Part shown: positions 1,943 to 40,716 of the stretch, piece by piece
Position numbering within the stretch: the first letter of the stretch is position 1
How the letters are laid out: every line of letters starts with the position of its first letter
From: Paludibacteraceae bacterium
GTDB taxonomy: Bacteria > Bacteroidota > Bacteroidia > Bacteroidales > Paludibacteraceae
NCBI GenBank assembly: GCA_017457295.1
Contig: JAFTHS010000059.1
Location: 1-47,194, forward strand
DNA: 47,194 nt
Direction: 5' to 3'
Translations under genes and position numbers: made by a program
The notes under the pieces: model-generated
Told to the model about the DNA's origin: nothing
Seen by the model: the letters and a program-made list of their open reading frames with translations, nothing else
The model's database searches: none

Positions 1943-3580
1943 TTATCTTATACGATATTTTTCGAGTAGATTCAAGATGTAGTCATACAATGTTTTGCTT
2001 GAGTCCGATTTAAGCAACAATTCGAGTAATTCGAACTCCACCTCCACACCACTAAAGGTATTTTGTATATTAACAAAAGTCATCATCGCATGCTTTCCTT
2101 CTGTTGGCAATTTTGCATCCTCCTCATATATGTTTGACCAGAAAGGTTCGTTATCTAATAAGATAAATGGTGATGAGAACAATGTAGTCTTCCTTTTTGC
2201 ATCAAAGTACTGTCCAAATAATTGGAGATAAAAACCCTCCCAAGACGCTAAAATAGGTATTCGATTTGTTAGTTCTCCATAAGATGCATGAAGCCATCTA
2301 ACATAATCAATGAATGACAAAAGCATGCACAACTTACCTATTATAATCTTCGAATTCTCTCCACTAATAGAAATATCACGAAAACATCCCTTGTAATAGT
2401 CAACATCTTTCACTCCTTGATATCGAGTTGCCTGTTCGGTATGCTCTATAATTCTCTCAAGAGGTTCAGTTGTTATATAAAAGGTATCGTTCCTATTAGC
2501 AGCAATAATCATAATTTCCCCTAAAGGAGTATTAGAAGTGACGAACTTGTATTCATCATTCACCAGTTCATATGAACTTTTAAAAACTTCGCGAAAATAA
2601 TGTGCGATAGGTTCATCCTTCGCATAGCAAATTTGCAATAATGTTTGTTCTTCTGTTTCTTTTGTAATGTTTAGTGTTGCCTTAAAATGTTTTTTATCAA
2701 CAATAAGATTTATTGCAGAAGACCCTAAATATGAGAAATCTGGATTATCAAGATATTCAGCCCATATTTTATGCACAGAGCAGGGTATCGTTATTCCTTC
2801 TGTTAAGAGGGGAATATTGATTTGTTGCTTCAATAACAATGTTTTCCCAGGAAGAATATTTACAACTCCTTCATCGGAGTTCGAAATTTTGGATTTTGAG
2901 TCAACAATTTTTCCTATAGTAATATTTTCCTTGACACATTCCTGAATACAAATATTTTCTAAGATAGCGACATTACCATAACGTCTTTGTTTGGTTGTGG
3001 GGGATGGGATTGAAGTCATGTATGATAATAGACATACATCACCTTCTGTTAAGTCTGCCGTTATTTTGGCATATAGTGCGTCCCTTAAAAGAGTTCTAGC
3101 CAACAAAGAATGCTTAATATCTTCTGTTAAATCTGGATAAATATAGCCTAAACAACTCAAATACCAAGAATCGTAGTATTCGAATACAAGTCCTAATTGC
3201 GCAGCTGTTTTGATTTGATTTTCTCCAAATTTCTGGAATGAAACTTTATTGTCTGTATTAACATAATTTGGAAAAAGTTTACCTATTTCCACGTATCCAA
3301 GTCCCTTGTTCCCGTCATTTAGTAGCGCATTGCACATTTCTATTTCACATGCTTCGAAGCTGCTACATTGCGTAATATTTTTAGATTCTATTTTTAGGGA
3401 AGTTCGGTTCTCTTTAATATAATTAATAAACTCCGAATAAGGAACAGACAGAATCGTATTTACATAATGATCTAGCGCACCCTTTGGAACAACATAGTCT
3501 TTATCGTCCAATATATATTCATTATACATTTCCTCAAGGTTTCTTGAGAAAAACAATTCTATCACTTCCTTGTTTACCAT
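1943..3580 (-). CDS. unrecognised 545-residue protein, last gene of the six-gene operon
   Basis: I do not recognise this protein. It is soluble-looking, with no signal peptide or membrane segment. Residues about 75-170 (around YVEIGKLFPNYV, FGENQIKTAAQLGLVF and YPDLTEDIKHSLLARTLLRD) look like helical, possibly winged-helix domains of the kind that precede catalytic parts in restriction-like proteins, but no PD-(D/E)XK, HNH, GIY-YIG or P-loop motif is visible. The C-terminal half (about 380-545) is mixed alpha/beta. Its ATG overlaps the stop of the preceding ParB-like gene (TAATG at 3582-3578), so translation is probably coupled. As the promoter-distal product of a helicase/nuclease/ParB/radical SAM operon it could be an effector or a specificity subunit; that is inference from context only. 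The DNA is clearly A/T-richer than the core genes. Confidence 0.75.
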   Translation of the reverse strand: MVNKEVIELFFSRNLEEMYNEYILDDKDYVVPKGALDHYVNTILSVPYSEFINYIKENRTSLKIESKNITQCSSFEACEIEMCNALLNDGNKGLGYVEIGKLFPNYVNTDNKVSFQKFGENQIKTAAQLGLVFEYYDSWYLSCLGYIYPDLTEDIKHSLLARTLLRDALYAKITADLTEGDVCLLSYMTSIPSPTTKQRRYGNVAILENICIQECVKENITIGKIVDSKSKISNSDEGVVNILPGKTLLLKQQINIPLLTEGITIPCSVHKIWAEYLDNPDFSYLGSSAINLIVDKKHFKATLNITKETEEQTLLQICYAKDEPIAHYFREVFKSSYELVNDEYKFVTSNTPLGEIMIIAANRNDTFYITTEPLERIIEHTEQATRYQGVKDVDYYKGCFRDISISGENSKIIIGKLCMLLSFIDYVRWLHASYGELTNRIPILASWEGFYLQLFGQYFDAKRKTTLFSSPFILLDNEPFWSNIYEEDAKLPTEGKHAMMTFVNIQNTFSGVEVEFELLELLLKSDSSKTLYDYILNLLEKYRIR

Positions 3581-4566
3581 TACTTGTCTTTTGTATAACC
3601 ACTCAATGTATTTAATAACTGTTTCATCTGTATAACAAAATCTGAATCACTTTTGAGTTGTTGACGAATTTGTGAATCATAATTATTAAGCAATCTACGG
3701 AATCTATCAAATCCATTAGAAATAACTTGTCCCACATTGGCTTCGCTAACTATCTCTACAGCATCGTCCAATGACATTTCGTCATCCAAATAGGTAATGA
3801 GGGTCTGGAATGCCTCGCCTGTATCAACCTTAGCAATAGTAGCTACTTTTCTCAATTCTCGAGCATCATCAAACTCTTCATTTTTAATTTTCTCACATAA
3901 TTGAGGAATAATATCAATACTTGGGTTCGACGCAGCCATTTTAAGAATAGGTTTACTCTTATATAGCTCATAATAGTAACTCCAATGAGTAGGATGCATA
4001 TCTTCATTATTCTGCATTGCATTGAAAACTTTCACATACAACTCGGCTTCACTCACCTTAATTCCAAAGTCTTGTGCAAGTGCTTTTATTGGACGACGCG
4101 ACTTTTGAGTCATACGATATAGATAACCAGCTTTTTCAAATGGACTCCACTCTGTTTGACCAACAAGGTGAATAGATCCCAGTAATGTTTGCACCAACTC
4201 CTCGGATATATCTTTAGGCAAAACCTTACATTTGATTTTTGACCATCTATGTGGATCTGTTTTTGCTAAAATTCTATAAGCAGCAAGTCGGCTATTACCC
4301 TCAAGAACCTCATTACCACGCACAATAATAGGATTGTTCAACCCTCCATTCGCCTCGATGTTTACACGTAGTCTCTTAACATGGTCAAGACTGGTCATTT
4401 TCTTTTCAATTTCTGCTTGAGAAGGGAAGTCATTGCCAGTGCTTCTTAATTGCGTAAACACACGAGGATTTTCTGCGTAGAACAATAAATCTCTTTGTTC
4501 TAATTCTGTTTCCCAAATTTCGACTTCGTGTTTACCGATAGTCATTGTAGTCTTTCTGCTTTCCAT
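3580..4566 (-). CDS. ParB-like protein B (ParB/Srx fold plus HTH)
   Basis: This 328-residue protein has the order expected of ParB relatives. A short N-terminal strand region is followed by NNPIIVRGNEVLEGNSRLAAYR (residues about 77-98, corresponding to the ParB G-E/N-x-R box that contacts nucleotide). IHLVGQTEWSPFEKAGYL (132-149) aligns with the ParB C3 motif but has HLVG where ParB has EN-Q-R. A helix-turn-helix segment follows (about 159-183, LAQDFGIKVSEAELYVKVF). Chromosomal ParB proteins are CTP-dependent DNA clamps; whether this one binds CTP, ATP or cuts DNA cannot be told. It is one base from the SNF2 gene upstream and overlaps the 545-residue gene downstream. It is similar in layout to the protein at 6450-7463, but the two are diverged and complementary rather than a recent duplication. 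No parA or parS-like site was seen nearby. Confidence 0.75.
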   Translation of the reverse strand: MESRKTTMTIGKHEVEIWETELEQRDLLFYAENPRVFTQLRSTGNDFPSQAEIEKKMTSLDHVKRLRVNIEANGGLNNPIIVRGNEVLEGNSRLAAYRILAKTDPHRWSKIKCKVLPKDISEELVQTLLGSIHLVGQTEWSPFEKAGYLYRMTQKSRRPIKALAQDFGIKVSEAELYVKVFNAMQNNEDMHPTHWSYYYELYKSKPILKMAASNPSIDIIPQLCEKIKNEEFDDARELRKVATIAKVDTGEAFQTLITYLDDEMSLDDAVEIVSEANVGQVISNGFDRFRRLLNNYDSQIRQQLKSDSDFVIQMKQLLNTLSGYTKDK

Positions 4567-4567
4567 A

Positions 4568-6037
4568 TTAATTAGTTTTTAAAATTTCCTGAACAATTTG
4601 AGCAAAAGAATAATCCGCATTTTTCTGATATTCTTCTTTGCTAATATCACCTTGAGCCAGAAAAGCTGCTTGTTGTTTTGCTTTGAGCAAGTAATCAACC
4701 CATATATCAATACTATCTTCAATCAAAAGGTTGTAAATATTGCAATCTTTTTTTTGCGAGATACGATGTATTCTATCTTGAGCTTGTAAGTAATCGTCGA
4801 GATTAAATCCTCTATCATAGAAAATAGCGTTATTGGCAACAGTTAATGTTAAGCCCTCTTTTGCCGACTGTGGAGTAGCAAAAAGCAAACATGCATTACC
4901 TTCTTTGAATGCTTTAACAGAGCGAATACGGTCTTCTGTACTCATCTTTCCCGTAATTTTTACAGCATTTAAATGTTTGTATTTTTTGCAGAACTCATCA
5001 ATATTTCCCGTAAAACTACTCCAAACAATAGCTTTTTCATTGCGTTCGATGATTTGCGTTATAAGTCTATCAAGAAGCATCTCCTTTGCAGATGGACCTT
5101 CATATGCTTCGTCTAACAATTTAGGATTGGAAGTAACTTGTACTAATCGCAAAAGTCTTTTAATGGTATCTGAAGACTCATCCAAAATTGTCTCATCACC
5201 TTGTTTGAGCAGAATGGTCATTTCGTTTTGTATCTGTTTATACATCATTTGTTGTTGATTTTCAAAAGCGATATAAACATCATGATAAATTTTTGATGGT
5301 AAAGTTATTATACCACTATTCTTTGTTTCTCGAACGGTAAACGAGCGAATTTTATCAAAGATTTTAGATACATTGTCTTCAAAAAGTTCCTTTCTTTCTG
5401 TATTATGAACTAAATCATTTGACAAATCGCATGTATGCTTAAAAGAGGCAAAGTCAGTACCAAGGCTTTCACCTAAATCAAGAAAATATATTTGAGACCA
5501 TATATCATAAGGACGATTTGCTACAGGAGTTCCTGACATTATAACTTTTCTGTAGAACAGAGGTGCAAGATATAAGAAGTCTTGGGTAAGTTTTGAATCA
5601 GGGTTTTTGATTTTTGCAGATTCATCAATAATAATAGCAACATTTCTTGTTTTCAAAAATCTCTCAATCCTCTCTTTTTCTCCAGAAATAGTTTCGAAAT
5701 TTGTAATAATGGTGCGAACTGGACTATTAAGAATATAATAATTATTACCCTTGCTATTATTCATTACTTTAGGACGAAGATTCGTATGTGTTGCAAACTC
5801 ATCCACCCAATTGGGGACAAGTGTCTTTTTAGTTACAACCATAACAGTATCCACATCACAAGAAGACAGCCAATATAGAAGTAAATCAATGGCTATTTTA
5901 GTCTTTCCTAATCCCTGTTCATGGAAAATAGCAGCATATGGTTTATCCTTAATTTCAAGGAAAGCCTCGTGCTGATACTTAAACGCATTAAGTTTAGCTG
6001 ATAAATTATAAACAGTATTGTATCTTATATTGCTCAT
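4568..6037 (-). CDS. SNF2-type DEAD/DEAH-box helicase
   Basis: This 489-residue ATP-dependent DNA translocase of the short, phage-like SNF2 type has motif I EQGLGKTK (40-47), motif II DESA (138-141, Ser-Ala in place of Ala-His), motif III SGTP (168-171), and in the second RecA domain motif VI QAQDRIHRISQ (418-428). There is no extra nuclease or accessory domain; the length is close to a bare two-domain helicase core. Its ATG overlaps the stop of the PD-(D/E)XK gene by 4 bp (ATGA), so nuclease and translocase are probably made together and may act as one machine. Such nuclease-SNF2 pairs are also common in phage genomes. Known from the family: DNA or protein-DNA remodelling driven by ATP. Inferred: the motor of the six-gene system. 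Confidence 0.88.
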   Translation of the reverse strand: MSNIRYNTVYNLSAKLNAFKYQHEAFLEIKDKPYAAIFHEQGLGKTKIAIDLLLYWLSSCDVDTVMVVTKKTLVPNWVDEFATHTNLRPKVMNNSKGNNYYILNSPVRTIITNFETISGEKERIERFLKTRNVAIIIDESAKIKNPDSKLTQDFLYLAPLFYRKVIMSGTPVANRPYDIWSQIYFLDLGESLGTDFASFKHTCDLSNDLVHNTERKELFEDNVSKIFDKIRSFTVRETKNSGIITLPSKIYHDVYIAFENQQQMMYKQIQNEMTILLKQGDETILDESSDTIKRLLRLVQVTSNPKLLDEAYEGPSAKEMLLDRLITQIIERNEKAIVWSSFTGNIDEFCKKYKHLNAVKITGKMSTEDRIRSVKAFKEGNACLLFATPQSAKEGLTLTVANNAIFYDRGFNLDDYLQAQDRIHRISQKKDCNIYNLLIEDSIDIWVDYLLKAKQQAAFLAQGDISKEEYQKNADYSFAQIVQEILKTN

Positions 6038-6450
6038 ATAACAGCCACTTTATATATGTTGTCTAAAATATGAAAACTTATATCCGAAATATTCTCGCGC
6101 ATCTTTTTACGAACAATCATATTTTTAATGTGCGAAAATGATAATGCATTTGAGCAAATCACAATATGACGAGTTCCTTTGTGACATCTGACCTCATCTA
6201 TGTAACTATTAATCTGACGTTCTGTATGGTCATTTTCAACATCTCGAATAGTTTTGGCTTCACCAATGATTATTGTATGTGAATCGTTATATAATACATC
6301 TGGAATATATCCATCGAGCGTTGCTATAGGACGTTCTGGAAAATCTGGAAGATCGGCTAGTAAGCAACTAGGAATAAAAGCAGAGGGTATGTCCTTCGCA
6401 TACTCAACAATCCTTTTTACATAGGTTATATGATTAAGGGATTCTGCCAT
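6034..6450 (-). CDS. minimal PD-(D/E)XK nuclease-like protein
   Basis: A 138-residue protein whose centre carries the restriction-endonuclease-like signature: P50-D51 in GYIPDVLY, then E64-A-K66 in IIIGEAKT, followed by a helix with TERQINSY (about 76-83) that fits the conserved Gln/Tyr position of this fold. D51, E64 and K66 would bind the catalytic metal. It is nearly all core fold, like VRR-NUC or Holliday-junction-resolvase-like proteins, with no separate DNA-binding domain, so targeting probably comes from partners. Start codon and upstream ParB stop share TAATG; its own stop overlaps the SNF2 start. The domain is visible from the sequence; nuclease activity is inferred. Confidence 0.78.
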   Translation of the reverse strand: MAESLNHITYVKRIVEYAKDIPSAFIPSCLLADLPDFPERPIATLDGYIPDVLYNDSHTIIIGEAKTIRDVENDHTERQINSYIDEVRCHKGTRHIVICSNALSFSHIKNMIVRKKMRENISDISFHILDNIYKVAVI

Positions 6451-7463
6451 TAGTCCTCCATTTCCATCATTGTTTCAATAATGAAATCTAACTTTGATTT
6501 AAGCAACTCCAAAATTTCTCTTTTCTCAATATGTGATTCTTTTGTAGCCAATAGTTTTATTTCAGTGGCGGCTAAATTATCTAACTTTATACGAAGTTCT
6601 TGAGCTAGTTTTTCATATGGATATTCACTTAGATCAGTAGTCATCAATTCAGCAGCATGCAAAACTTTCTCGGCTTCTGTCAAATTTTGTTTAACAAAAA
6701 CTTTATGAGCTTCTTCGTTTTTTAACACATCAGGAATACGACGAACAGCCATTGCTTTATCAACATTGCCATCTGCGACCCACTTAGCAAACTGATTATC
6801 TTCATAGCCCTTGCGACGTATCGCTCCTTGAATACGGGAATTTTGATATTCTAAGAACTTTGAAAATTCTTGTGGGTCAAATTCCATATTTGGGATAGAA
6901 TTGATGTATGTGCGATAATAATCTTCCATATATTCATATGCTTGAATATATTTGTTTATTTCAGAAGCACGTCCACCGCACATAGAGATAATTTGGTTCA
7001 TTGGTAATCCTGAATGGCTCAATTTATGTAAATATTTAGCCTTAGAATATGGATTCCAATCACGAGGTCCCACTAAGTGTGATTGCAGCCGAATTTCGTG
7101 TTTTTGCAATTCATCTAATTGTTCATATACTAATGCTGGTATCTGTTCCCAATTGCCAGGGACATTCTTGGCTAAAAACTCCTTGTAGATTTGAACGCGA
7201 GTATTTCCTTCGATAACGACATAACGTCCTTGTTCATCGTGATTAACATGAATCGGATTTATGATACATCCACTAGTCTTTATTGAGTCCAATAGAGAAT
7301 GATATGAAGTATGTGAACTATTATCTGAGTCATCAGATAGCGCATTTGCTATTATTGCGCTATTTACCTCTACGTAATTTTCAAGAATTTGCATGATACG
7401 AGGATTCTCTTCATCCAAACAAATGTCGCTAATATTAAGCGTAGTTAGTTGCCATTTTGCCAT
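6450..7463 (-). CDS. ParB-like protein A (ParB/Srx fold plus HTH)
   Basis: A 337-residue ParB relative, second gene of the operon. Residues 81-94 (YVVIEGNTRVQIYK) correspond to the ParB GxRR nucleotide-binding box, and SHLVGPRDWNPYSKAKYL (128-145) to the C3 box, again with HLVG instead of EN-Q-R as in the other ParB-like protein here. A helix-turn-helix stretch follows at about 152-178 (MNQIISMCGGRASEINKYIQ). The C-terminal part (about 260-337) is helical and charged, probably for dimerisation or partner binding. It starts 17 bp after the radical SAM gene and overlaps the nuclease gene by one base. Two ParB-like proteins with the same altered motif in one operon suggests that they act together, perhaps as a heterodimeric DNA-loading or sensing clamp (inference). 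Confidence 0.75.
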   Translation of the reverse strand: MAKWQLTTLNISDICLDEENPRIMQILENYVEVNSAIIANALSDDSDNSSHTSYHSLLDSIKTSGCIINPIHVNHDEQGRYVVIEGNTRVQIYKEFLAKNVPGNWEQIPALVYEQLDELQKHEIRLQSHLVGPRDWNPYSKAKYLHKLSHSGLPMNQIISMCGGRASEINKYIQAYEYMEDYYRTYINSIPNMEFDPQEFSKFLEYQNSRIQGAIRRKGYEDNQFAKWVADGNVDKAMAVRRIPDVLKNEEAHKVFVKQNLTEAEKVLHAAELMTTDLSEYPYEKLAQELRIKLDNLAATEIKLLATKESHIEKREILELLKSKLDFIIETMMEMED

Positions 7464-7480
7464 AGTATATAGATTTATAA

Positions 7481-9355
7481 TTATTCATTGTTTTCCCATA
7501 AAGTAGAATCTACCAAATTGGACATCTTATAGTCAAACATTTCAAGTAACTCCTCCCTATGTTGTGGATACATTTCTAAGAGATTCAATAATGTTCGTAT
7601 AGGACGTGATATTTTTCGAACCTTGCCTCGAACATCCACTTTTTCGTAATAGCCTGCTTGTAAGTCACGCTCAAAGTCAATGAATGATTTTAATTTTTGA
7701 GGAACTTCAAATCCAGCCTGTTCTTCCCAAAATGTTTGATTGCGATAAGTATATTCCCAAAAAGACATTTTCTTGTAGAACGCCTGTTGATTACACCATC
7801 GAGCAACTTGCACATAGATATTCTCTAATGGAGATTTGTGGTAGTCCTCATGGCGCATTACATATCCTACACAACCATATTGCATGAGGATTTTAATTCG
7901 TTGGAACAACTCCCAAATATCACGATAGAACTTGTCAAAATTGTCTTGCGTCTGCATGAATCCACAGAATAGATAGAACTTAGTTCCCTTCTTTGGATTA
8001 TGGCGCTTCCAAATCTTTAATGCACGCTCAATAACTTCGCGGTCTTTCCAATTGTCAAAAGCATAAATAAAATCTCCGTGATAGCGAGAATGACCTAGCA
8101 TAGCAGCCATCTCTTCTCCATGTTCGTCCTCTGCCAAAAGACGCTCATCAAGTCCTTGTCTAAATTGGAAGGAGATTTTATTGTCTATCAAATACTGTAA
8201 TGCAGGTTTCCAAATATGGTATGGAGCAGCAAGGAAATTATCATCCCAGAAATACACATGCGGACGCTTCTTATCATGGAACCATTCGAGTTTTGAATAC
8301 GACACAACACCATCCTCCAATTTATTTACGCAAAATGGGCAATGACGGAAACATTTTCTCGTAAGAAATCCAATGGAATATTTTTCGTAATCTTTGTATT
8401 TATCACGTTTAAATCCCGCTTCAACTTGTCTGTCAATATATTCTTTGTACAGGTCATAGTATGGCATTTGAACTGCCATATTGATTCCTTGTTTGCCAGT
8501 ATGCTTGCAAGTAAGGGTATTCAAAAATGCGTCGTGACTTAGTCTGTCCATATCTTCTTCTCGCAATTGACGAAACTTAGAAACAGACTTTTCGTTTGCA
8601 TAATATCCAGTTCCACCTAAACGAAACTTTTTCTTTTCAGAAGCAGAAGCATTGAGATAGAAAGTAGGTTCTTCTGTGAAAGTAAAGACGCGGGACATGT
8701 AGATATATGTATATTGGCTTATATCTGTCTTAGTATCTGTAATGAGTTCAAAGGAAATGTTATTATCAAATAAATAACCTGCTATCTTGAGTAAAGCTAA
8801 GTTAGGATGGCGAGTGCCATTGCACAACAAATCAGCATCAACAAGACCGATTTTTTTAGATGCTTTTTTTCTATAGCAACTAAACAAATTATAGCCAGTA
8901 AGATAAATTGGTTCATGCTTTGCTTTACATTCACTATCAAGCAGAACTTTAAGGTCAATATCCTCGAATTTAACTTCCTCCCCTAAAGTAAAAACTAAAT
9001 ACTCGCTACGAGGATTAGGGTAGTCAAGTTGCTGCATTGCTTCTACAGAAAGTACTTCTGACTTCTCAACCTTGTAAATTTTGTATCTATTTTCTTTGCT
9101 ATTTTTATACAAGATGACGTAATCTATTGCATAGGACAATGGATTTTTCTCGTTAACTCCTCCTTTGCGTTTGGCTTCTTCTGGTCTAACATTATACAAA
9201 TGCGTCTTATTAAACCATTTACGGTTTTTTGGACGGATATACCCAACCAAGAATCGTCTCTCAGCATAATCGCGGAAGAGGCGCTTCGTGTTTTTATCTT
9301 CAACATTTGCTTCTGCAAAGTTAAGAGTGAGGGATATATCTTTTTTGGCAACCAT
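7481..9355 (-). CDS. radical SAM enzyme with B12-binding-like domain and N-terminal extension
   Basis: This 624-residue protein opens the six-gene operon. Residues 335-342 are CFRHCPFC, the CxxxCxxC site for the SAM-cleaving 4Fe-4S cluster, preceded by YSIGFLTRK as in MiaB-like and B12-type radical SAM proteins. Residues about 168-250 (KIGLVDADLL, HPNLALLKIAGYL, YIYMSRVFTF, RLGGTGYY) form a Rossmann-like cobalamin-binding-type domain; the usual DxHxxG cobalamin ligand motif is not evident, so B12 need not bind. The first 160 residues are an extension I do not recognise. Similar B12-like radical SAM proteins of unknown substrate occur in phages and mobile DNA. The start was set at ATG 9355 because the promoter (9377-9408) would place the transcript start near 9373, below the upstream ATG at 9430. 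Possible role: modifying DNA or a partner protein. Confidence 0.85.
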   Translation of the reverse strand: MVAKKDISLTLNFAEANVEDKNTKRLFRDYAERRFLVGYIRPKNRKWFNKTHLYNVRPEEAKRKGGVNEKNPLSYAIDYVILYKNSKENRYKIYKVEKSEVLSVEAMQQLDYPNPRSEYLVFTLGEEVKFEDIDLKVLLDSECKAKHEPIYLTGYNLFSCYRKKASKKIGLVDADLLCNGTRHPNLALLKIAGYLFDNNISFELITDTKTDISQYTYIYMSRVFTFTEEPTFYLNASASEKKKFRLGGTGYYANEKSVSKFRQLREEDMDRLSHDAFLNTLTCKHTGKQGINMAVQMPYYDLYKEYIDRQVEAGFKRDKYKDYEKYSIGFLTRKCFRHCPFCVNKLEDGVVSYSKLEWFHDKKRPHVYFWDDNFLAAPYHIWKPALQYLIDNKISFQFRQGLDERLLAEDEHGEEMAAMLGHSRYHGDFIYAFDNWKDREVIERALKIWKRHNPKKGTKFYLFCGFMQTQDNFDKFYRDIWELFQRIKILMQYGCVGYVMRHEDYHKSPLENIYVQVARWCNQQAFYKKMSFWEYTYRNQTFWEEQAGFEVPQKLKSFIDFERDLQAGYYEKVDVRGKVRKISRPIRTLLNLLEMYPQHREELLEMFDYKMSNLVDSTLWENNE

Positions 9356-9376
9356 GGATTTTTCTATTTCAACCCG

Positions 9377-9408
9377 CAAAGTTACTGCTTTTTTTGCATA
9401 AATGCAAA
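9377..9408 (-). promoter_or_regulatory. promoter of the six-gene operon
   Basis: Minus-strand -7 box TAACTTTG (9377-9384) and -33 TTTG (9405-9408) are separated by exactly 20 bp. The transcript start should fall near 9373, 18 bp before the radical SAM ATG. No other good promoter is seen before 1943, so all six genes probably depend on it. Confidence 0.7.
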
Positions 9409-9437
9409 TAAATGGCGAAAAAGTCGCCATTTTAGTT

Positions 9438-9675
9438 TAGTGGACGCTCGCAAGCGAGCTACTGTTTAGAGTTTAGGGGCAAGGAATTCCCGAATGGCAT
9501 TCGGGACAATGACAAAGAAAGAGGGGCGCAAAAGTGCGCAAATTTAAAGTTGTACTTTAAGATTGCGCAAATTGGAGAGCACAATGTGCCTGATTAGAGG
9601 TGCGGAATTACTCGCGGGGGTAGCCGCGAGAACTGAACCAACTATGAGAAATTGGCTCGGCGAATTAGCGCAAGT
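9438..9675. repeat. cluster of short palindromes between operon and phosphoesterase gene
   Basis: This intergenic stretch holds several unrelated hairpins in a row: GCTCG/CGAGC (about 9446-9459), CCCGAATG/CATTCGGG (about 9489-9505), GCGCAA/TTGCGC pairs, TTTAAAGT/ACTTTAA, and CTCGCG/CGCGAG (about 9611-9631). No gene was found; the small open frame at 9563 has no coding character. GGACGC followed by a palindrome, a CTAC-like word and GTTTA also occurs near 11275. Confidence 0.5.
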
Positions 9676-9760
9676 GCACCCCATAACGCGAGCGTTATCG
9701 GGGACCCCGCCGAGCAGTAGACAGATGGTGGAAATGAAAGGGACCCCGTAGGCAATGGAC
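9676..9760. repeat. 85-bp direct repeat, left copy
   Basis: From GCACCCCATAACGCG to GGCAATGGAC this matches 11305-11389 with one difference (GCAGTAG versus GCACTAG). The first 30 bases fold as CCCCATAACGC / GCGTTATCGGGG. Together the two copies bracket the phosphoesterase and winged-helix genes. Confidence 0.8.
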
Positions 9761-9761
9761 G

Positions 9762-9786
9762 AACTATTTGGAAATTCCTAATAGTT
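9762..9786. repeat. palindromic GGAAATTCC element, copy 3
   Basis: A 25-bp palindrome centred on A9774 has arms AACTATTTGGAA and TTCCTAATAGTT, with one mismatch at the same position as in the copy at 309-329. It lies just downstream of the phosphoesterase stop on the minus strand and could also serve as a weak terminator. Confidence 0.5.
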
Positions 9787-9804
9787 GAGATAATATCTCA
9801 ATCT

Positions 9805-10596
9805 TTAGACAGTAATATGATGTGCGGGGTTGAATCCATTGTGTATGGGTTCGCCATGTGAGAGGTAACCAAACTGGTTGCTCATCAAGCGCGTAGTGCC
9901 AATATGTGCATCTATATTGCGGTGCGAGTGTCCGTAAATCCAATAGTCGATACCAGAATCCGCTATATAGTCGCCCAGTTCTACCGTAAACGCTCCGCTG
10001 ATAGTACTTCCACGAAATTCCTCTGCTGTACATAAGTGGGTAGGTACATGGTGTGTAAGTACGATTTTTGTTTTGGCTTGACTATCCGCTACTGCTTTTT
10101 TGATAAACTGCAGGCAGCGTTCGTGCTCGTGATTAAAGTCCTCAGCTGTTAAGCGATGTCCATTGTACATGATGCGATAGAAGTCGCTCACATTACGCTC
10201 GGTAAGGAAAGCATCGTGGGGTTCAATTTTCGCCCAAAGCGTAGAAACGATGATATCTGTATCCTGCAAGTGTACTACGTTATTGTAGTAAGCATGCACA
10301 TTGTGGCGAATCTGTTTGCAATAGCCATCAGGCATAGTAGCCAAATCGTAATGCCCATAGAAATCATGATTGCCGAGGCAAACAATCACTTGGTTATAAT
10401 TAACAGAGGCCCAGTCCCAGAAAGTATAATCGCTGTAGGTGTCTTGTCCCGACAGAGGCAAGTCAAGATACGCGCTATCGCCTGCAATAAGAAGTATATC
10501 GCCTGTCACTTGTAGCGGATGGTCTTGCAGATACTGTCTGTTCTGCGCAAACTCTAAATGCAAGTCGCTGACAAATTGTATTTTAAGTTCTTGCAT
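9805..10596 (-). CDS. calcineurin-like metallophosphoesterase
   Basis: All metal-binding motifs of the calcineurin-like phosphoesterase fold are present in order: SDLHLE near the N terminus, GDSAYLD, GNHDFYG, THHVPT and YGHSH. The substrate is unknown; family members hydrolyse phosphomonoesters, phosphodiesters or nucleotides with two divalent metals. I place the start at ATG 10596, giving MQELKIQFVSDLHLEF as in relatives; the ATGs at 10641 and 10647 would add 15-17 residues and overlap the upstream winged-helix gene by up to 23 bp. It is the second gene of a two-gene unit bounded by 85-bp direct repeats. With no signal peptide it should be cytoplasmic. Confidence 0.85.
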   Translation of the reverse strand: MQELKIQFVSDLHLEFAQNRQYLQDHPLQVTGDILLIAGDSAYLDLPLSGQDTYSDYTFWDWASVNYNQVIVCLGNHDFYGHYDLATMPDGYCKQIRHNVHAYYNNVVHLQDTDIIVSTLWAKIEPHDAFLTERNVSDFYRIMYNGHRLTAEDFNHEHERCLQFIKKAVADSQAKTKIVLTHHVPTHLCTAEEFRGSTISGAFTVELGDYIADSGIDYWIYGHSHRNIDAHIGTTRLMSNQFGYLSHGEPIHNGFNPAHHITV

Positions 10597-10624
10597 GGCT
10601 GATGCAATAGTCTGCAAACGCTCG

Positions 10625-11140
10625 TTATTGGTTTTCTGCATAACCATTGATATGTTTGGCTAATTCCGCAATAGCAATCTCTCTCTCGCGCACGCGACCC
10701 ATACGGAGAGTGTCCACTATCACTAATAGTTGATATAATTCGTTGTCGTCCTGAATGGCTTGAGGGACAGTATTGTATAATGGCTGAATCTGCTGACCGC
10801 GCGCAGAACCTTTGACATCATGCCATACATAGCTCTCATTGTCATTGGAAAGTTGCTCTTTGATGGGCGATGCGCTGATATATGTTGGCACCCCTCGCCC
10901 TACACGCCCTGCCTCAGCTGGGAATACATATTGAATGCCATGTATGAGAAACTCTTGCAGCGCAAGAGCGTTGACACGCTTTTTATTGCGATCAACGAGT
11001 TGAGCTTTCTTACAGCGTTCTAAACACTCGCTAACTGTTGAAGCACTCATACCTAACGAAGCAGCTAATCCATTAGCAGAAAGCACCTTTCCTTGCGAGG
11101 TTATTTTCTTTAGCAAAACAACTATATCTTGCGGTTTCAT
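10625..11140 (-). CDS. winged-helix DNA-binding protein, partner of the phosphoesterase
   Basis: A 171-residue protein. Residues about 1-50 form a helix-turn-helix/winged-helix domain (LLKKITSQGKVLSANGLA, SLGMSASTVSECLERC, then a basic wing), and the rest is a conserved-looking C-terminal part with AGRVGRGVPTYIS and REREIAIAELAKHI. Proteins of this layout in Bacteroidota often precede a toxin-like or enzymatic partner and probably repress their own operon. The start at ATG 11140 follows the promoter at 11209-11240; the ATG at 11239 lies upstream of the likely transcript start. A perfect 10-bp palindrome ATTCGCGAAT (11179-11188) in the leader is a candidate operator. The family is not named with certainty. 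Confidence 0.75.
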   Translation of the reverse strand: MKPQDIVVLLKKITSQGKVLSANGLAASLGMSASTVSECLERCKKAQLVDRNKKRVNALALQEFLIHGIQYVFPAEAGRVGRGVPTYISASPIKEQLSNDNESYVWHDVKGSARGQQIQPLYNTVPQAIQDDNELYQLLVIVDTLRMGRVREREIAIAELAKHINGYAENQ

Positions 11141-11178
11141 ATGGTTGTATATTATTTGATTATACGTGATTTTTCGCA

Positions 11179-11240
11179 ATTCGCGAATAGCGAATGTCGA
11201 TTCGGCTGCAAAGGTACGATATTTTTTGCAGATATGCAAA
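11179..11240 (-). promoter_or_regulatory. promoter and candidate operator of the winged-helix/phosphoesterase unit
   Basis: The -7 box TACCTTTG (11209-11216) and -33 TTTG (11237-11240) are 20 bp apart on the minus strand. ATTCGCGAAT (11179-11188), with neighbouring TTCGC/GCGAA half-sites, lies between the start of transcription and the ATG, where a repressor could block the transcript. Confidence 0.6.
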
Positions 11241-11304
11241 TAATACTGCCGATTTTCTAAAAATTATTGTTTAGAGGACGCGCCAAAGGCGCTACAGTTT
11301 AAGA

Positions 11305-11389
11305 GCACCCCATAACGCGAGCGTTATCGGGGACCCCGCCGAGCACTAGACAGATGGTGGAAATGAAAGGGACCCCGTAGGCAATGGAC
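11305..11389. repeat. 85-bp direct repeat, right copy
   Basis: Direct-orientation match of 9676-9760 with one mismatch. The bases just before it (GGACGC, palindrome GCGCC/GGCGC, CTACAGTTTA) also resemble those upstream of the left copy, so the repeated unit may be longer but eroded. Confidence 0.8.
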
Positions 11390-11605
11390 ATAGAAAAATT
11401 TAGATTGGCTGCGCCTGGAGAGGGGATAGAGGGACATGATATTAAGAAAATGCACTTTTTGATGATTGGGAGTTCTTATCTCGCGAGTGCTCGAACGATT
11501 ATTTCTTAGGTTCGTCCTTGGTTCGTCCTTGGTTCGTCCTTGGTTTTTGACACGGGACCAAAAGGGAAGGGACAGGGGAAAGGAATCTGAAGAAAAGTGC
11601 TGTCT
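11390..11605. repeat. gene-free stretch with an 11-bp tandem repeat
   Basis: No credible gene. GGTTCGTCCTT is repeated three times from 11509 to about 11541 with a partial fourth copy. Open frames through here and the next repeat have repetitive, shadow-like translations. Confidence 0.5.
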
Positions 11606-11791
11606 TGTAGATCGCTCGCTGTGCTCGCTGGAGATGGGAGATCGGCTGCGCCTGTAGGTCGGGCTGATGCCCTGTAGATCGCTCGCTGTGCTCGCTGGAG
11701 ATGGGAGATCGGCTGCGCCTGTAGGTCGGGCTGATGCCCTGTAGATCGCTCGCTGTGCTCGCTGGAGATGGGAGATCGGCTGCGCCTGTAG
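11606..11791. repeat. 67-bp tandem repeat, about 2.8 copies
   Basis: Units beginning TGTAGATCGCTCGCTGTGCT start at 11606, 11673 and 11740, a strict 67-bp period, and the third is incomplete. Copies are nearly identical, so the array is probably young and variable. Each unit contains GCTCGC and GATCGGCTGCGCC palindromic words. Confidence 0.85.
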
Positions 11792-11812
11792 AGGGGGAGG
11801 TTGGGGAATTGA

Positions 11813-11840
11813 AACAGCCGCAGGGAGGCCTGCGGCTGTT
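11813..11840 (-). terminator. hairpin downstream of the OPT transporter gene
   Basis: AACAGCCGCAGG and CCTGCGGCTGTT form a perfect 12-bp stem with a 4-nt loop, 31 bp past the stop codon. The T-run on the minus strand is short, so termination strength is uncertain. Confidence 0.65.
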
Positions 11841-11870
11841 GTATATTGAACACTTAATTGTGCGATGAGC

Positions 11871-13820
11871 TTATTTGGTTTTCTTGCTTGCGCAGATGAA
11901 GTACACAATCAGAGCGACATACGCAGCCAAGCCGACGAGGGCAGCACCGTTGCTTGCAGCCCAAGTGCCTAAGTAGCACTCTACGCCGCAGAACTTAATC
12001 AAAGCACTCACTACACCCATCAATGCACCACCAGCGATGAAGCCAGAAGCGATGAGGGTACCTTTCTCGTTGCGCGCTTGAGCCAACTCTTCAGCTTTCT
12101 CGCCGTCCTTCTCGCGCTTGCGGCTAACGAGCCATGCAATAGCACCGCCCACGAGCAATGGAGTGTTGAGTTCCAATGGGATGAACATACCCAAGGCGAA
12201 TGCCAATACAGGTACGCCCATGAAGTTGAGAATCAAAGCAAGGATTGCGCCTGCGAGATAGAGCATCCAAGGTGCGCCTTGTCCGCTCATCAATGGTTCG
12301 ATGACCGCAGCCATTGCGTTGGCCTGAGGTGCTACGAGTGCGTTCTCGCCTACGAAACCGTAGGTCTTGTTAAGGATAATCATTACACCACCCACAGTAG
12401 CAGCACTAACGAGGGTGCCGAGGAACTTCCAAGTCTCTTGTTTGCGTGGGGTAGTACCAATCCAGTAACCGATCTTGAGGTCGGTGATGAAGCCACCAGC
12501 CATAGCGAGTGCGGTACAAACGACACCACCAATAACCATAGCACCGACCATACCGCTGGAGCCCTTCATGCCGATAGCCACGAAGACTACAGAAGCGATA
12601 ATCAGGGTCATGAGGGTCATACCGCTGACAGGGTTGCTACCCACGATAGCGATAGCGTTGGCTGCCACCGTAGTGAAGAGGAAAGCAATGACAGCCACCA
12701 CGAGGAAAGCGACAAGCGCTTGCCAGAAATTGCCGAGTACGCCGAGCCAGAAGAAGACAAGAGTGATCACGAGCGCTACAGCGATAGCGATAACCACGAA
12801 CTTCATGCTCAGGTCCTTCTCGGTACGGAGAGAGGCGGTGATGACTGCTTTACCCTTGCCACCGAGCTCTTTGCCAGCCAGTCCGACTGCGGACTTGATG
12901 ACGCCCCAACTCTTGACAATACCTATCAGACCAGCCATAGCGATGGCACCGATACCGATATTGCGACCATAGTCCACGAACATGGTTTGTGGGTCCACTT
13001 CTGCCATGCCAGGGATACTGCCGAGCAATGGAAGGAGTACCCACCAGATGAAGAATGAGCCCGCGCAGATAACTGCTGCATACTTAAGACCGATGATATA
13101 GCCCAGACCGAGCACTGCTGCACTAGTATTGATAGAGAAGACCAGTTTGAACTTCGCAGCCAATGCTTCGCCCCAACCCATCATGCGGGTAGAGAGCGAT
13201 TCGGTCCAGAGTCCGAAAGTGGAGACAGCGAAGTCGTAGAGACCACCAATACCTGCAGCCCAGATGAGGGGTTTGGCTTGGTTGCCACCTTGTTCGCCCG
13301 AAACGAGCACCTGTGTGGTAGCTGTGGCTTCAGGGAAGGGGTATTCGCCGTGCTTCTCTTGTACGAAGTACTTGCGGAAAGGAATAAGGAAGAGGATACC
13401 GAGGCAACCGCCGAGCAAGGATGATAGGAAGACTTGCATGAAAGTGACGGTGATATCAGGGTATTTGGCTTGCAAGATATAGAGCGCAGGGAGGGTGAAG
13501 ATGGCACCTGCTACGATGACACCGCTGGAGGCGCCAATGGATTGAATAATCACATTCTCGCCAAGAGCGTTCTTGCGCTTCATAGCCGAAGAGAGGCCTA
13601 CTGCGATGATAGCGATAGGGATAGCTGCTTCGAAGACTTGACCCACTTTGAGACCAAGATACGCTGCGGCAGCCGAGAAAATGACTGCCATAATAACACC
13701 CATGATGACGCTATAAGGCGTGATCTCGGGATACTCTTGGTTGGGTTTGAGAATCGGTTCGTACTTCTCGCCCGGTTTGAGAGGGCGATTAGCGTTTTCA
13801 GGAAGTTGGATTTTCGACAT
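11871..13820 (-). CDS. OPT family oligopeptide transporter
   Basis: This 649-residue polytopic membrane protein has about 14-16 hydrophobic segments. It begins with the family hallmark region KPGEKYEPILKPNQEYPE then YSVIMGVIMAVIFSAAAAYLG, and later has EYPFPEATATTQVL (about residues 158-171) and NPVSGMTL, both typical of the OPT/YSL-like branch found in Bacteroidota. These carriers import small peptides or metal chelates by proton coupling at the inner membrane; the substrate cannot be inferred. It has its own promoter (13851-13882) and a downstream hairpin, so it is monocistronic. The G/C content is visibly higher than in the accessory genes. Confidence 0.93.
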   Translation of the reverse strand: MSKIQLPENANRPLKPGEKYEPILKPNQEYPEITPYSVIMGVIMAVIFSAAAAYLGLKVGQVFEAAIPIAIIAVGLSSAMKRKNALGENVIIQSIGASSGVIVAGAIFTLPALYILQAKYPDITVTFMQVFLSSLLGGCLGILFLIPFRKYFVQEKHGEYPFPEATATTQVLVSGEQGGNQAKPLIWAAGIGGLYDFAVSTFGLWTESLSTRMMGWGEALAAKFKLVFSINTSAAVLGLGYIIGLKYAAVICAGSFFIWWVLLPLLGSIPGMAEVDPQTMFVDYGRNIGIGAIAMAGLIGIVKSWGVIKSAVGLAGKELGGKGKAVITASLRTEKDLSMKFVVIAIAVALVITLVFFWLGVLGNFWQALVAFLVVAVIAFLFTTVAANAIAIVGSNPVSGMTLMTLIIASVVFVAIGMKGSSGMVGAMVIGGVVCTALAMAGGFITDLKIGYWIGTTPRKQETWKFLGTLVSAATVGGVMIILNKTYGFVGENALVAPQANAMAAVIEPLMSGQGAPWMLYLAGAILALILNFMGVPVLAFALGMFIPLELNTPLLVGGAIAWLVSRKREKDGEKAEELAQARNEKGTLIASGFIAGGALMGVVSALIKFCGVECYLGTWAASNGAALVGLAAYVALIVYFICASKKTK

Positions 13821-13850
13821 GTTTTAAGAGTTTAAAAAGTTTTAAGGGTG

Positions 13851-13882
13851 CAAAGGTACATAAAAAATTGCATATAAGCAAA
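13851..13882 (-). promoter_or_regulatory. promoter of the OPT transporter gene
   Basis: Minus-strand TACCTTTG (13851-13858) with TTTG (13879-13882) 20 bp upstream. Divergent from the promoter at 13919. Confidence 0.65.
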
Positions 13883-13918
13883 TAGGTGGGAGAATTTTTG
13901 CAAAAAGCAAGGCGGGAC

Positions 13919-13950
13919 TTTGCGTATATGGAAAAAAAGCAGTATCTTTG
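13919..13950 (+). promoter_or_regulatory. promoter of the DHH phosphoesterase gene
   Basis: TTTG (13919-13922), 20-bp spacer, TATCTTTG (13943-13950); the ATG follows at 13987. Confidence 0.65.
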
Positions 13951-13986
13951 CAATCGGAATAACAAGAACGAAAAACAATAGCACGA

Positions 13987-15078
13987 ATGAATATGATTAG
14001 ACTCTCTCAGATTATTGCTCCCGAACTGGTGGCCGCGGCAAAAGAACGGCTGGATGTATGCACCAATGTGGTGATAGTGACGCATATGTCGCCCGACGGC
14101 GATGCTATGGGCAGTAGTTTGGCCATGCGACACTACCTGGAAGACCAAGGGAAGCATGTGACCGTAGTAGTGCCCAATAAGTTTCCAGAGTTCTTGGCAT
14201 GGCTACCCAAGGCGAACGAGGACATGATATATGAGGCGCAGAAAGAAGCTGCGGACCAAGTGCTGGAGACCGCAGACCTGGTGATTTGTACGGACTTTAA
14301 CGAACCAAAACGCATAGGTTCGCTGGGAGATAAAGTGCAGAGTTTAGCGTGCCCGAAGATAATGATAGACCACCATTTGCATCCATCGGATTTGGCAGAC
14401 GTGGTGGTGTCGTATCCGAAGTTGCCATCGACCTGCGAGTTGGTGTATAGACTGATGATGGACCTGGCAGCAATGGGCAATCCGTGCATAGAGACATTGC
14501 CCAGCCGACTGGAAATAGCCACCTGCATATACACAGGCATGATGACCGATACGGGGAACTTCTCGTTTAACTCGAACTATGCGGAGATGTATCAGATAGT
14601 GGGGCAATTGGTGGAACTGGGCGTGGATAAAGACAAGATATACAACGCTGTGTTCAATGCCTATTCGGCCGACAGAATGCGCCTGATGGGATATTGTTTG
14701 TACAATAAAATGCGCATATTTCCCGAATATCATACGGCACTGATCTATCTGAGCAAGAAGGAGTTGTATAGATTTAACTTTCAGTCGGGCGATGCAGAAG
14801 GCATAGTGAACCTGCCGCTGCAGATAAAAGATATACACTACTCGTGCTTCATGCGCGAAGATAAGGTGAATCCCACCGAGGTGGAGTTGGCCAACGGCAG
14901 CAAGACAAAGATAAAAATATCGCTGCGCAGTCAAGGTGATAGGCCTGTGAACACGTTTGCACACGACATTTTTGGCGGTGGTGGACACGCCAATGCATCG
15001 GGCGGAGAATACTACGGTCCGCTGCCTGAGGCAGTGCAACAATTCTTGGATAATTACCAGAAATACTTCAACAAATAG
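13987..15078 (+). CDS. nrnA: DHH/DHHA1 phosphoesterase, NrnA-like
   Basis: A 363-residue member of the NrnA group, which degrades 2-5 nt RNA oligomers and dephosphorylates 3'-phosphoadenosine 5'-phosphate using Mn2+. Motifs: VTHMSPDGDAMGSSLA (about residues 31-46), the aspartate in CTDFNEP, the DHH motif in MIDHHLHPSD (about 125-134), MTDTGNFS, and the C-terminal DHHA1 glycine loop GGGGHANASGG (about 331-341) that binds substrate. Length is usual. The start could also be the ATG at 13993. It converges with the HAD gene 11 bp downstream without an obvious terminator between them. Function by family: RNA turnover and sulfur-assimilation by-product removal in the cytoplasm. Confidence 0.9.
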   Translation: MNMIRLSQIIAPELVAAAKERLDVCTNVVIVTHMSPDGDAMGSSLAMRHYLEDQGKHVTVVVPNKFPEFLAWLPKANEDMIYEAQKEAADQVLETADLVICTDFNEPKRIGSLGDKVQSLACPKIMIDHHLHPSDLADVVVSYPKLPSTCELVYRLMMDLAAMGNPCIETLPSRLEIATCIYTGMMTDTGNFSFNSNYAEMYQIVGQLVELGVDKDKIYNAVFNAYSADRMRLMGYCLYNKMRIFPEYHTALIYLSKKELYRFNFQSGDAEGIVNLPLQIKDIHYSCFMREDKVNPTEVELANGSKTKIKISLRSQGDRPVNTFAHDIFGGGGHANASGGEYYGPLPEAVQQFLDNYQKYFNK

Positions 15079-15089
15079 CTAACGGGTAC

Positions 15090-15692
15090 TCAAGCGTGCT
15101 CAAGAGCATGAAAGGCCCGTTGCGCCTGCTCGGCAGAGAAGAACTGGATGCCGTGGATACCTAAGGCCTGCGCTGCGGCCACGTTGTGCGCATTGTCGTC
15201 GATGAAGACACACTCGTGGGGAGAAAGCTGGTAGCGAGAAAGCAAGATATGATAGATACGATGGTCGGGTTTGGCAATCTTTTCTTCGCCCGACATGACA
15301 ATACCATCCAACAAATCGAAGACAGGAAAACGATGACGGACCAAGGGGAAAGTCTCTGTGGACCAATTGGTTAGTCCGTAGATGGAGTAGCCATCTTGCT
15401 TCAAACGCAAGATCCATTCGTACATGCCCGGAATGGGGTCGCCAATCATCTGAATCCATTGGTCGCCGTACATGCGTATCTCCTTCTCCCACTCGGGAAA
15501 TTCGGCCGTTTTCTCGGCTATGGCCTGCGCGAAGGTCTTACCAACATCGGTCTGGTTGTTCCATTCGATGGTGCAGATGTGCTGGATGAACCAATCGGTT
15601 TTCTCTTTGCTGCCGAAATAGGGGTCGTATAAATAGTGCTGGTTCCAATCGACCAACACGCGACCAAAATCAAAAATGATATTCTTAATCAT
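15090..15692 (-). CDS. HAD-superfamily hydrolase
   Basis: A 200-residue haloacid-dehalogenase-type phosphatase. Motif I is DFGRVLVDW (D8 nucleophile; the second Asp position is Arg-Val, so the usual DxD acid is replaced by G/R, as in some YihX-like proteins). Motif II is LTNWS, motif III is the Lys in KIAKPD, and motif IV is FIDDNAHNV. A helical cap lies between motifs I and II. YihX-like enzymes dephosphorylate sugar phosphates, but the substrate here is unknown. The start was moved to ATG 15692 because the promoter (15749-15780) puts the transcript start near 15745, downstream of the more distal ATG at 15779. Confidence 0.85.
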   Translation of the reverse strand: MIKNIIFDFGRVLVDWNQHYLYDPYFGSKEKTDWFIQHICTIEWNNQTDVGKTFAQAIAEKTAEFPEWEKEIRMYGDQWIQMIGDPIPGMYEWILRLKQDGYSIYGLTNWSTETFPLVRHRFPVFDLLDGIVMSGEEKIAKPDHRIYHILLSRYQLSPHECVFIDDNAHNVAAAQALGIHGIQFFSAEQAQRAFHALEHA

Positions 15693-15748
15693 ATACTCTT
15701 GCGTTGAAAGTGAGCGGAGGCAGTACAACCTCCGTAGAATTCGCAGGG

Positions 15749-15780
15749 CAAAGGTAGTGAAAAAAAATGAAAAGTACAAA
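15749..15780 (-). promoter_or_regulatory. promoter of the HAD hydrolase gene
   Basis: Minus-strand TACCTTTG (15749-15756) and TTTG (15777-15780), 20-bp spacing. Confidence 0.65.
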
Positions 15781-15797
15781 CGGAAGGCAGAAAAATG

Positions 15798-15828
15798 TTG
15801 CGTAATTCAGAAAATTGTTGTAATTTTG
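15798..15828 (+). promoter_or_regulatory. promoter of miaB, abutting its start codon
   Basis: TTG (15798-15800), 20-bp spacer, TAATTTTG (15821-15828). Only four bases separate the -7 box from the ATG at 15833, so the predicted transcript begins at or next to the start codon. Confidence 0.6.
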
Positions 15829-15832
15829 CAGC

Positions 15833-40680: not shown

Positions 40681-40716
40681 GTGTGTAATAAAACGAATAA
40701 ATATTGCATACATAAT

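Follow-up and report, generated by a model that had tools for sequence, protein, structure and literature searches.

A minus-strand operon of a Paludibacteraceae bacterium joining a radical SAM protein to a conserved ParB–nuclease-like–SNF2–ParB core: a candidate restriction-modification-like system

Contig JAFTHS010000059.1 of a Paludibacteraceae bacterium (assembly GCA_017457295.1), of which positions 1 to 47,194 are referred to here as the window, contains six open reading frames (ORFs) on the minus strand, designated A to F and spanning positions 9355 to 1943 (Table 1). They encode a protein with a radical S-adenosylmethionine (SAM) core, a ParB-like protein, a small nuclease-like protein, an SNF2 ATPase, a second ParB-like protein and a last protein of unassigned family. 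The tight coupling reported in a preliminary description of this DNA is evident, with all six frames present and neighbouring frames overlapping or lying at most 17 nucleotides apart: the gap between A and B is 17 nucleotides, B and C overlap by 1, C and D overlap by 4, D and E are separated by 1, and E and F overlap by 1. The same description placed a promoter at the head of the operon, and a promoter-like sequence is present there, as judged against what we take to be the Bacteroidota consensus; the first ATG of the long frame of A (7481–9430), however, lies upstream of this box. Because of this position, and because the alignment with a homologue of the N-terminal domain of A in locus L018 begins at ATG 9355, that codon is probably the start, giving a protein of 624 amino acids.

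Table 1. Positions of the features of the operon in the window.
Feature	Position	Strand	Basis
Bacteroidota-type promoter-like element: TTTG 9408-9405, 20-nt spacer, TAACTTTG 9384-9377	9377..9408	-	sequence
A, N-terminal domain, residues 1-166	8858..9355	-	homologues elsewhere fused to DNA methylases and large putative nuclease subunits
A, radical SAM core, residues 167-624	7481..8857	-	PHROG 9298 (8.3e-35); CX3CX2C; AlphaFold2 model
CX3CX2C of A (C335, C339, C342), predicted holder of the radical SAM 4Fe-4S cluster	8330..8353	-	conserved residues
B, ParB1, 337 aa, EGNTR nucleotide-binding-type motif	6450..7463	-	PHROG match, motif conservation
C, minimal PD-(D/E)XK nuclease-like protein, 138 aa, P50-D51 ... 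E64-A65-K66	6034..6450	-	residue conservation
D, SNF2 ATPase/translocase, 489 aa	4568..6037	-	Pfam SNF2-rel_dom 1.9e-26, Helicase_C 5.5e-17
E, ParB2, 328 aa, paralogue of B, EGNSR motif	3580..4566	-	PHROG match, motif conservation
F, variable last gene, 545 aa: conserved N-terminal part of about 220 aa and unassigned C-terminal part	1943..3580	-	homologues in 14 other loci

Relatives of the operon were gathered from plasmids by tblastn of B, E and D, with 6 of the 8 records matched by B being fetched, and from GTDB genome contigs by a scan with a ParB1 alignment, which yielded 89 relatives, the best 80 of which were used. The window and these 86 relatives (plasmid and GTDB loci) constitute the 87 modules compared. 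The plasmid relatives belong to Rhizobium, Mesorhizobium, Roseomonas and Bradyrhizobium, and their D proteins are 34–50% identical to that of the window; one such module lies on plasmid pR132505 of Rhizobium leguminosarum bv. trifolii WSM1325. The genes B, c, D and E stand side by side in a constant order in 80 of the 87 modules, a count composed of 68 found by a first gene picker that dropped overlapping ORFs and 12 added by a search of all ORFs in 16 of the 19 exceptions, with L076, L093 and L096, which are cut by contig ends, being left out of that search. These three and L036, likewise cut, lack a contiguous core, as does L059, a decayed module whose SNF2 protein is down to 125 amino acids. 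True rearrangements are seen in Bradyrhizobium L029, where three ParB-like genes precede c-D, and in L107, where ParB1 lies behind radical SAM and ATPase genes.

A radical SAM gene is carried by 77 of the 87 modules. Adjacent same-strand genes are almost always no more than 30 nucleotides apart, as counted for the pairs B–c (71/72), c–D (73/74), D–E (77/78), radical SAM–B (21/23), E–F (15/15) and E–radical SAM (10/13), and the median gaps for the three core pairs range from -4 to -0.5 nucleotides. Since this arrangement recurs across phyla with such tight median gaps, the operon is real and more than a chance assembly. According to record titles and the tree of D, the hosts, many of which are metagenome bins, include Bacteroidota, Bacillota, Pseudomonadota, Acidobacteriota, Actinomycetota, Chloroflexota, Planctomycetota and others, with Nitrospirota, Myxococcota, Verrucomicrobiota, Thermotogota, Elusimicrobiota and Fibrobacterota as further phyla on the tree of D. 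Close copies of the module occur in L057 and L063, which are assigned to different phyla, a similarity that may reflect misbinning or recent transfer. Among 393 Bacteroidales genomes, a full-length match of the B type was found only in the source genome, 20 others giving weak partial ParB matches only, and among the 395 genomes of the class of G806, D was matched at E≤1e-80 in the query genome only. The module is rare and sporadic, yet it spans many phyla; some copies reside on plasmids and others on large contigs, four of which are titled chromosome. Across 60 loci, with host phylogeny included in the signal, protein distances correlate with those of D at Spearman coefficients of 0.74 for B, 0.63 for C, 0.55 for E and 0.50 for the radical SAM protein. 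Because its distances and those of E follow D to a similar degree, the radical SAM protein has been inherited roughly as part of the unit.

Within the core, the SNF2 identity assigned to D in the preliminary description is upheld by its Pfam matches; the motif residues checked are kept in 83–84 of 84 homologues if conservative T/S changes are disregarded, and the solved chain nearest to D by sequence is the snf2/rad54 helicase 1z63 (2.4e-60). The two ParB-like assignments hold by PHROG matches to ParB-like families; in Pfam, B gave a sub-threshold ParB_N match (5.6e-4) and E gave no ParB match. B and E are ParB-like paralogues. The claim that C is a minimal PD-(D/E)XK nuclease stands as far as its residues are concerned, with P50 kept in 70, D51 in 74, E64 in 74 and K66 in 71 of 74 homologues, a pattern that suggests a nuclease-like protein of PD-(D/E)XK type; no convincing family match was obtained for C in Pfam, PADLOC, PHROGs or NCBIfam. 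Directly upstream of ParB1 in the contig-cut L093, an AAA-type ATPase gene and a gene that resembles RloB/AbiL by eye (157–2483) are perhaps another partner of the core.

The description of A as a radical SAM protein is likewise borne out, both by its PHROG match and by a CX3CX2C motif in a predicted radical SAM fold, the combination that characterizes the superfamily. No Pfam radical SAM match was found for A, and the version in L026 matched Pfam Radical_SAM below its cut-off (4.6e-5). The CX3CX2C motif is kept in 76 of the 77 module radical SAM proteins, the remaining one (L088) being cut by a contig end. The alignment of 76 sequences shows no variation at the three cluster cysteines; D(D/N)N is present in all 76 and QG(L/M/I/V)D in 75, and DxHxxG before the cluster in none. 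The AlphaFold2 model of A has a mean pLDDT (predicted local distance difference test) score of 73 and is confident for most of the core only, where most blocks score 80–96, the N-terminal domain having no resolved fold; in the secondary structure of the model, a Rossmann-like part may be read ahead of a radical SAM barrel. No reaction can be assigned to the protein, since the L026 version matched RimO only weakly (0.0013) and a sequence search with the radical SAM alignment gave no such named match. Radical SAM cores 57–61% identical to that of the window were also observed in L002 (1485–7027) and L017 (5647–9453), where a NERD-helicase-type gene comes next in each case and L002 additionally encodes a 794-residue protein of unassigned family; ParB and SNF2 genes were not seen in either locus, and these gene sets may be a second cassette with a radical SAM gene.

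A search of the 87 modules and 11 other loci found the N-terminal domain of A in the window protein only. Its homologues elsewhere are fused to a type II methylase in L018 (PADLOC 1.8e-92) and to a C5-cytosine methylase in L020 (Pfam 1e-95). In L019, L013 and 7 of the 8 loci from a phylum search, in which 9 of 395 genomes matched, the source genome included, the fusion is to the C-terminal part of large proteins. These large proteins resemble McrC-like nucleases by inspection only. The homologue in L022 stands alone. A DNA-reading role may be proposed for the domain.

The strongest indication of function comes from modules in which the radical SAM gene is replaced. A recognised radical SAM gene is lacking in 10 of the 87 modules, including L047, L066, L093, L095 and L096, whose contigs end inside the core or right after E. 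In L041, L042, L043 and L046, all Bacilli bins, a D12 adenine methylase gene precedes B, separated from it by no more than two genes (E-values of 6.5e-63 to 7.3e-67 in L041, L043 and L046, which were scanned; the L042 copy by inspection). In L041 and L042, a second methylase of N6/N4 type adjoins B (2.6e-66 and 1.6e-64) and DpnII follows E directly (1.6e-109 and 5e-108); in L041, the frame of B opens before the methylase stop codon and that of DpnII before the stop codon of E. A DUF6996-6997-7226 protein, whose family is a probable restriction protein, follows E in L043 and precedes B in L046. In quick, midpoint-rooted trees of D alone and of B, D and E together, the four methylase modules form one clade with a support of 100 in the Shimodaira–Hasegawa-like approximate likelihood ratio test, nested in a node of 22 rows (support 98) whose other 18 members carry radical SAM genes. 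Because this single methylase clade lies inside radical-SAM modules, one exchange took place, with radical SAM to methylase as the economical direction on these trees. Among all the evidence assigning the radical SAM protein to DNA modification, the exchange appears to be the best. The split into a modification arm (radical SAM and ParB) and a restriction arm (nuclease and SNF2) that had been proposed earlier has to be revised: both ParB proteins belong with the nuclease and SNF2 to one core, and the exchangeable parts are the radical SAM and last genes. Two further observations were made in these Bacilli loci: an OLD-like ATPase and a UvrD helicase, Gabija-like by domain content, lie downstream of the DpnII-linked module of L042 (15861–19914), with one gene in between, and a short SAM-synthetase-like protein (Pfam S-AdoMet_synt_N) is encoded near the module of L046 (4240–5022).

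The last gene, F, was rightly called an orphan, with no family match in Pfam, PADLOC, PHROGs or NCBIfam. Its homologues occur in 15 of the 87 loci, the window included (16 proteins), and have about 220 N-terminal residues in common; a match to the F profile in L059 proved to be a sigma factor and was left out of the count. Eight homologues, from Bacillota, Fibrobacterota and Bacteroidota, comprise little beyond this part (222–234 amino acids). The F orthologue of L031, the nearest relative by D (73% identity), bears an added peptidase-S24-like domain (9.5e-10) and an SBD-like domain (2.2e-10 to SBDHga1, 8h0l), and in L032 (13885–16941) and L033 (13886–16225) F is fused to sigma-70 regions 2 and 4, an arrangement that would link a defence operon to transcription in an unusual manner. 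The C-terminal part of the window protein gave no sequence match to the peptidase-S24-like, SBD-like or sigma-70 extensions. Elsewhere the slot after E is occupied by DpnII, the DUF6996-6997-7226 protein or AbiH (L051, 2.8e-26). DGQHR-type profiles matched in 30 of the 87 loci, and the L026 copy, the sole one scanned, matched DndB in Pfam (1.4e-9) and DpdB in PADLOC (5.3e-15); a GHKL ATPase is found in 45 of the 87, and alphaproteobacterial modules add both a DpdB/DndB-like protein and a GHKL ATPase. Some radical-SAM modules have no F homologue, DGQHR protein, GHKL ATPase or other slot gene. Variability of this kind in the last-gene slot is typical of effector or reader positions. In L025–L027 and L029, the alphaproteobacterial modules are followed by a second GHKL ATPase and a PIN-like protein (PIN_8 2.6e-19 in L026), possibly a separate toxin-like pair.

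It is considered moderately probable that the operon is a restriction-modification (R-M)-like anti-invader defence system in which the modification step is performed by radical SAM chemistry. The radical SAM protein is assigned to DNA modification because methylases stand in its place in the four Bacilli modules. In such a system, A would covalently modify host DNA as a self-mark, taking the role of the methyltransferase in conventional R-M, and its fused N-terminal domain, found also in R-M proteins, would probably aim it at DNA in this genome. ParB1, the PD-(D/E)XK protein, SNF2 and ParB2 would form one complex, a translocase-nuclease core, in which the ParB pair would load on and clamp DNA, SNF2 would translocate, and the small nuclease C would cut DNA without the mark, such as that of an incoming phage. 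F would read the DNA status or serve as an effector or regulator amplifying the response, a role that the alternative occupants of its slot in relatives, namely DpnII, the probable restriction protein or AbiH, may assume, and that may otherwise fall to the DpdB/DndB-like protein and GHKL ATPase. The reading is supported by the fixed core, the exchange, the methylase neighbours of viral homologues described below, the N-terminal fusions, the SBD-like and DndB/DpdB-like proteins of L031 and L026, the conserved residues and the sporadic spread of the module. The order and coupling of the genes, the conserved residues of catalytic type and the single exchange are observed, and from these the chemistry, the self-mark logic, the complex and the restriction of phages are inferred.

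Several results weigh against this proposal. The exchange is confined to one clade of four genomes and is hence one evolutionary event, and six modules have neither a radical SAM gene nor a seen methylase, five of them contig-cut and one (L059) looking decayed. Radical SAM enzymes also act on protein, tRNA and small molecules, and in the 76 radical SAM sequences no further cysteine column reaches half, so that none points to a reaction. In the window protein, a lysine (8354–8356) stands just before the first cluster cysteine in place of a glycine found in 75 of the 76, and the window copy could therefore be impaired. The EGNTR motif of B and the EGN(S)R motif of E are conserved, a result biased for B, whose motif was one of the two scan patterns. 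An SBD domain suspected by eye in the F protein of the window gave no match in sequence tests. Finally, defence genes beside the modules were not separated from the control: 136 flank ORFs from 20 loci matched 110 PADLOC models and 133 control ORFs from the same contigs matched 58, with a few proteins yielding both lists, the first 25 models of each being listed, and with a CRISPR-Cas locus included in the control.

The alternative raised in the preliminary description, that of a domesticated phage DNA-processing module, is taken here together with that of a host operon with a housekeeping or mobile-element job and no invader restriction. In favour of a phage origin, 404 stretches in IMG/VR encode relatives of the radical SAM core, D has phage SNF2 family 62 as its best PHROG match (4.6e-89), and SNF2, radical SAM and ParB genes adjoin each other in the archaeal virus vir335. 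The best 80 of the 404 stretches, with two named viruses, were analysed as 82 viral loci, and only one of these loci gathered by radical SAM, L136, on the same contig as L111, holds B-c-D-E. A separate scan of IMG/VR with ParB1 gave nine viral contigs, eight of which carry the whole module and are viral by database label; against 50,697 phage records, however, ParB1 had one weak match (27% identity over 43%), compared with 8 plasmid records. No relatives were obtained when viral sequences were scanned with one radical SAM protein as the query or with the N-terminal domain. Given the ParB1 matches and the core count of 1/82, this alternative was lowered from consideration as the leading explanation, and with methylase and restriction genes replacing radical SAM in the Bacilli clade it is judged unlikely. 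The setting of the viral genes bears on function as well. A clustered radical SAM homologue is present in 79 of the 82 loci, and clustering at 85% identity gives 50 groups, among them the host-type module of L136. A member of a methylase cluster (ParB-fused N6/N4 or C5-type) lies within three genes of the radical SAM gene in 28 of the 50 groups, a figure for which no control genes were compared; a SAM-synthetase-like gene does so in 7 of the 50. One representative of the ParB-methylase cluster and one of the SAM-synthetase cluster were checked in Pfam, and the C5 label was given by inspection. A short SAM-synthetase-like protein (Pfam S-AdoMet_synt_N) overlaps the start of the viral radical SAM gene in L182 (7276–8058). 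According to PMC3459991, a ParB-methyltransferase from a Bacillus cereus prophage has a DNA-nicking-associated activity.

The radical SAM protein might also be an effector or signal maker, acting for example on nucleotides, with B-c-D-E as a licensing sensor. Radical SAM proteins are a known class of defence effector, viperin being one that acts on nucleotides, and in many modules the gene pairs with a GHKL ATPase, sometimes on the strand opposite the core, much like an effector cassette. DNA methylases and restriction proteins, however, adjoin the core in the four relatives without radical SAM, viral homologues are often near DNA methylases, and phages would hardly be likely to keep an anti-phage effector; this explanation, too, has little probability. 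The two ParB proteins could form the basis of a device for replicon maintenance or for partition/silencing, which would account for the paralogous pair and for the several copies on plasmids, but this is considered highly improbable: no ParA-type ATPase was noticed in the module, where no systematic search was made, and one annotated ParA lies about 1.6 kb beyond the Roseomonas module; copies are also found on large contigs, including those titled chromosome, and restriction enzymes beside the core do not fit partition.

The DNA self-marks known so far are produced by methyltransferases, through the insertion of sulfur or deazaguanine, or by a small number of phage pathways. If the R-M-like reading is true, a radical SAM protein in the methylase position predicts a DNA modification not seen before, an unrecognised ParB-nuclease-SNF2-ParB core common to radical SAM and DpnII-type systems would be added to the restriction machines, and action on DNA would be suggested for a large family of phage radical SAM genes. 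A more far-reaching and still tentative version holds that this could be the first R-M-like immunity based on radical SAM chemistry, with a covalent DNA mark beyond the reach of ordinary methylases, a ParB-SNF2-nuclease complex and exchangeable readers that distinguish host from invading DNA by this mark, and a phage branch of the enzyme serving counter-protection.

The operon lies in a part of the window with a guanine-plus-cytosine (GC) content of 33–37% (2001–9000), followed by 43–54% at 9001–16000. Downstream is a RhuM gene (689–1717; Pfam 3.8e-99; PADLOC candidate PDC-S05), and genes of this type were also observed near the L031 and L101 modules and in L018. No phage structural match was found among the neighbours scanned, namely the RhuM protein in four libraries and the products of metallophosphatase and winged helix-turn-helix genes in Pfam. 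In another low-GC stretch, two plus-strand genes (40681–45286) resemble by eye a type III R-M pair (methylase, 646 amino acids; helicase-nuclease, 892 amino acids), with a second RhuM/Fic-like gene, also by eye, beside them (45421–46392).

Comparison with known systems shows partial likenesses. No entry in PADLOC, Pfam, NCBIfam or PHROGs names the gene set, as judged from the proteins of the window and its relatives that were scanned. It was not found described in open papers, including passages of PMC10853773, PMC5379612, PMC12839542, PMC2292703, PMC3710099 and PMC3459991; preprints and most subscription papers lay outside this search, so a description may exist there. The profile searches and neighbourhood comparison proposed in the preliminary description thus revealed a recurring gene order and no match to an already described system in the libraries and papers searched. 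The resemblance to dpd and dnd clusters noted there is partly retained: D resembles DpdE (1.7e-35) and L026 encodes the DpdB-like protein, while DpdA had no match among the window proteins or ten proteins of relatives (eight from L026, one each from L050 and L031), no further Dpd component matched in the scanned proteins, and DpdB had no match in the window operon. For Dnd/Ssp, the likenesses are the DndB-family protein of L026 and the SBD-like DNA reader domain in F of L031, with no match to DndA, DndC, DndD, DndE or Ssp among the proteins scanned. D, a bare SNF2 protein, is similar to ZorD of Zorya at the SNF2 core (4.8e-38) and to DrmD of DISARM at the SNF2 level only (1.8e-11), with no match to ZorA/B/C or DrmA/B/C in the window proteins scanned. 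An assignment of the operon to Dpd, Dnd, DISARM or Zorya was therefore rejected, as their defining parts had no match among the proteins scanned. Phage loci of PHROG 9298, in which radical SAM genes stand beside ParB-methylase clusters, share the family (34–41% identity in 80 listed loci) and differ in the scarcity of the B-c-D-E core noted above.

A further comparison is with DpnII-type (type II) R-M. In the six window proteins, no methylase match was found in Pfam, PADLOC, PHROGs or NCBIfam, beyond an overlap of the ParB domain with the phage methylase family phrog_498 (1.9e-4), and no known restriction endonuclease was matched in the same libraries; C displays the PD-(D/E)XK pattern without a family match, and the C-terminal part of F gave none either. 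The methylase expected of a type II system is present in L041, L043 and L046 by scanning and in L042 by inspection. Overall, the earlier observation of the operon is confirmed and its interpretation partly supported; the idea of an uncharacterised modification-plus-restriction system gained from the recurrence on plasmids and in many phyla, the lack of a name in libraries and papers, and the replacement of radical SAM by methylases and restriction genes in four relatives. This is apparently an undescribed system, R-M-like as far as can be told, yet a member of no tested family. In the four relatives, B-c-D-E stands beside D12 methylases, in two of them also N6/N4 methylases, and DpnII or the probable restriction protein, whereas the window has a radical SAM protein, two ParB proteins and an SNF2 translocase; the logic of modification plus restriction would be common to both.

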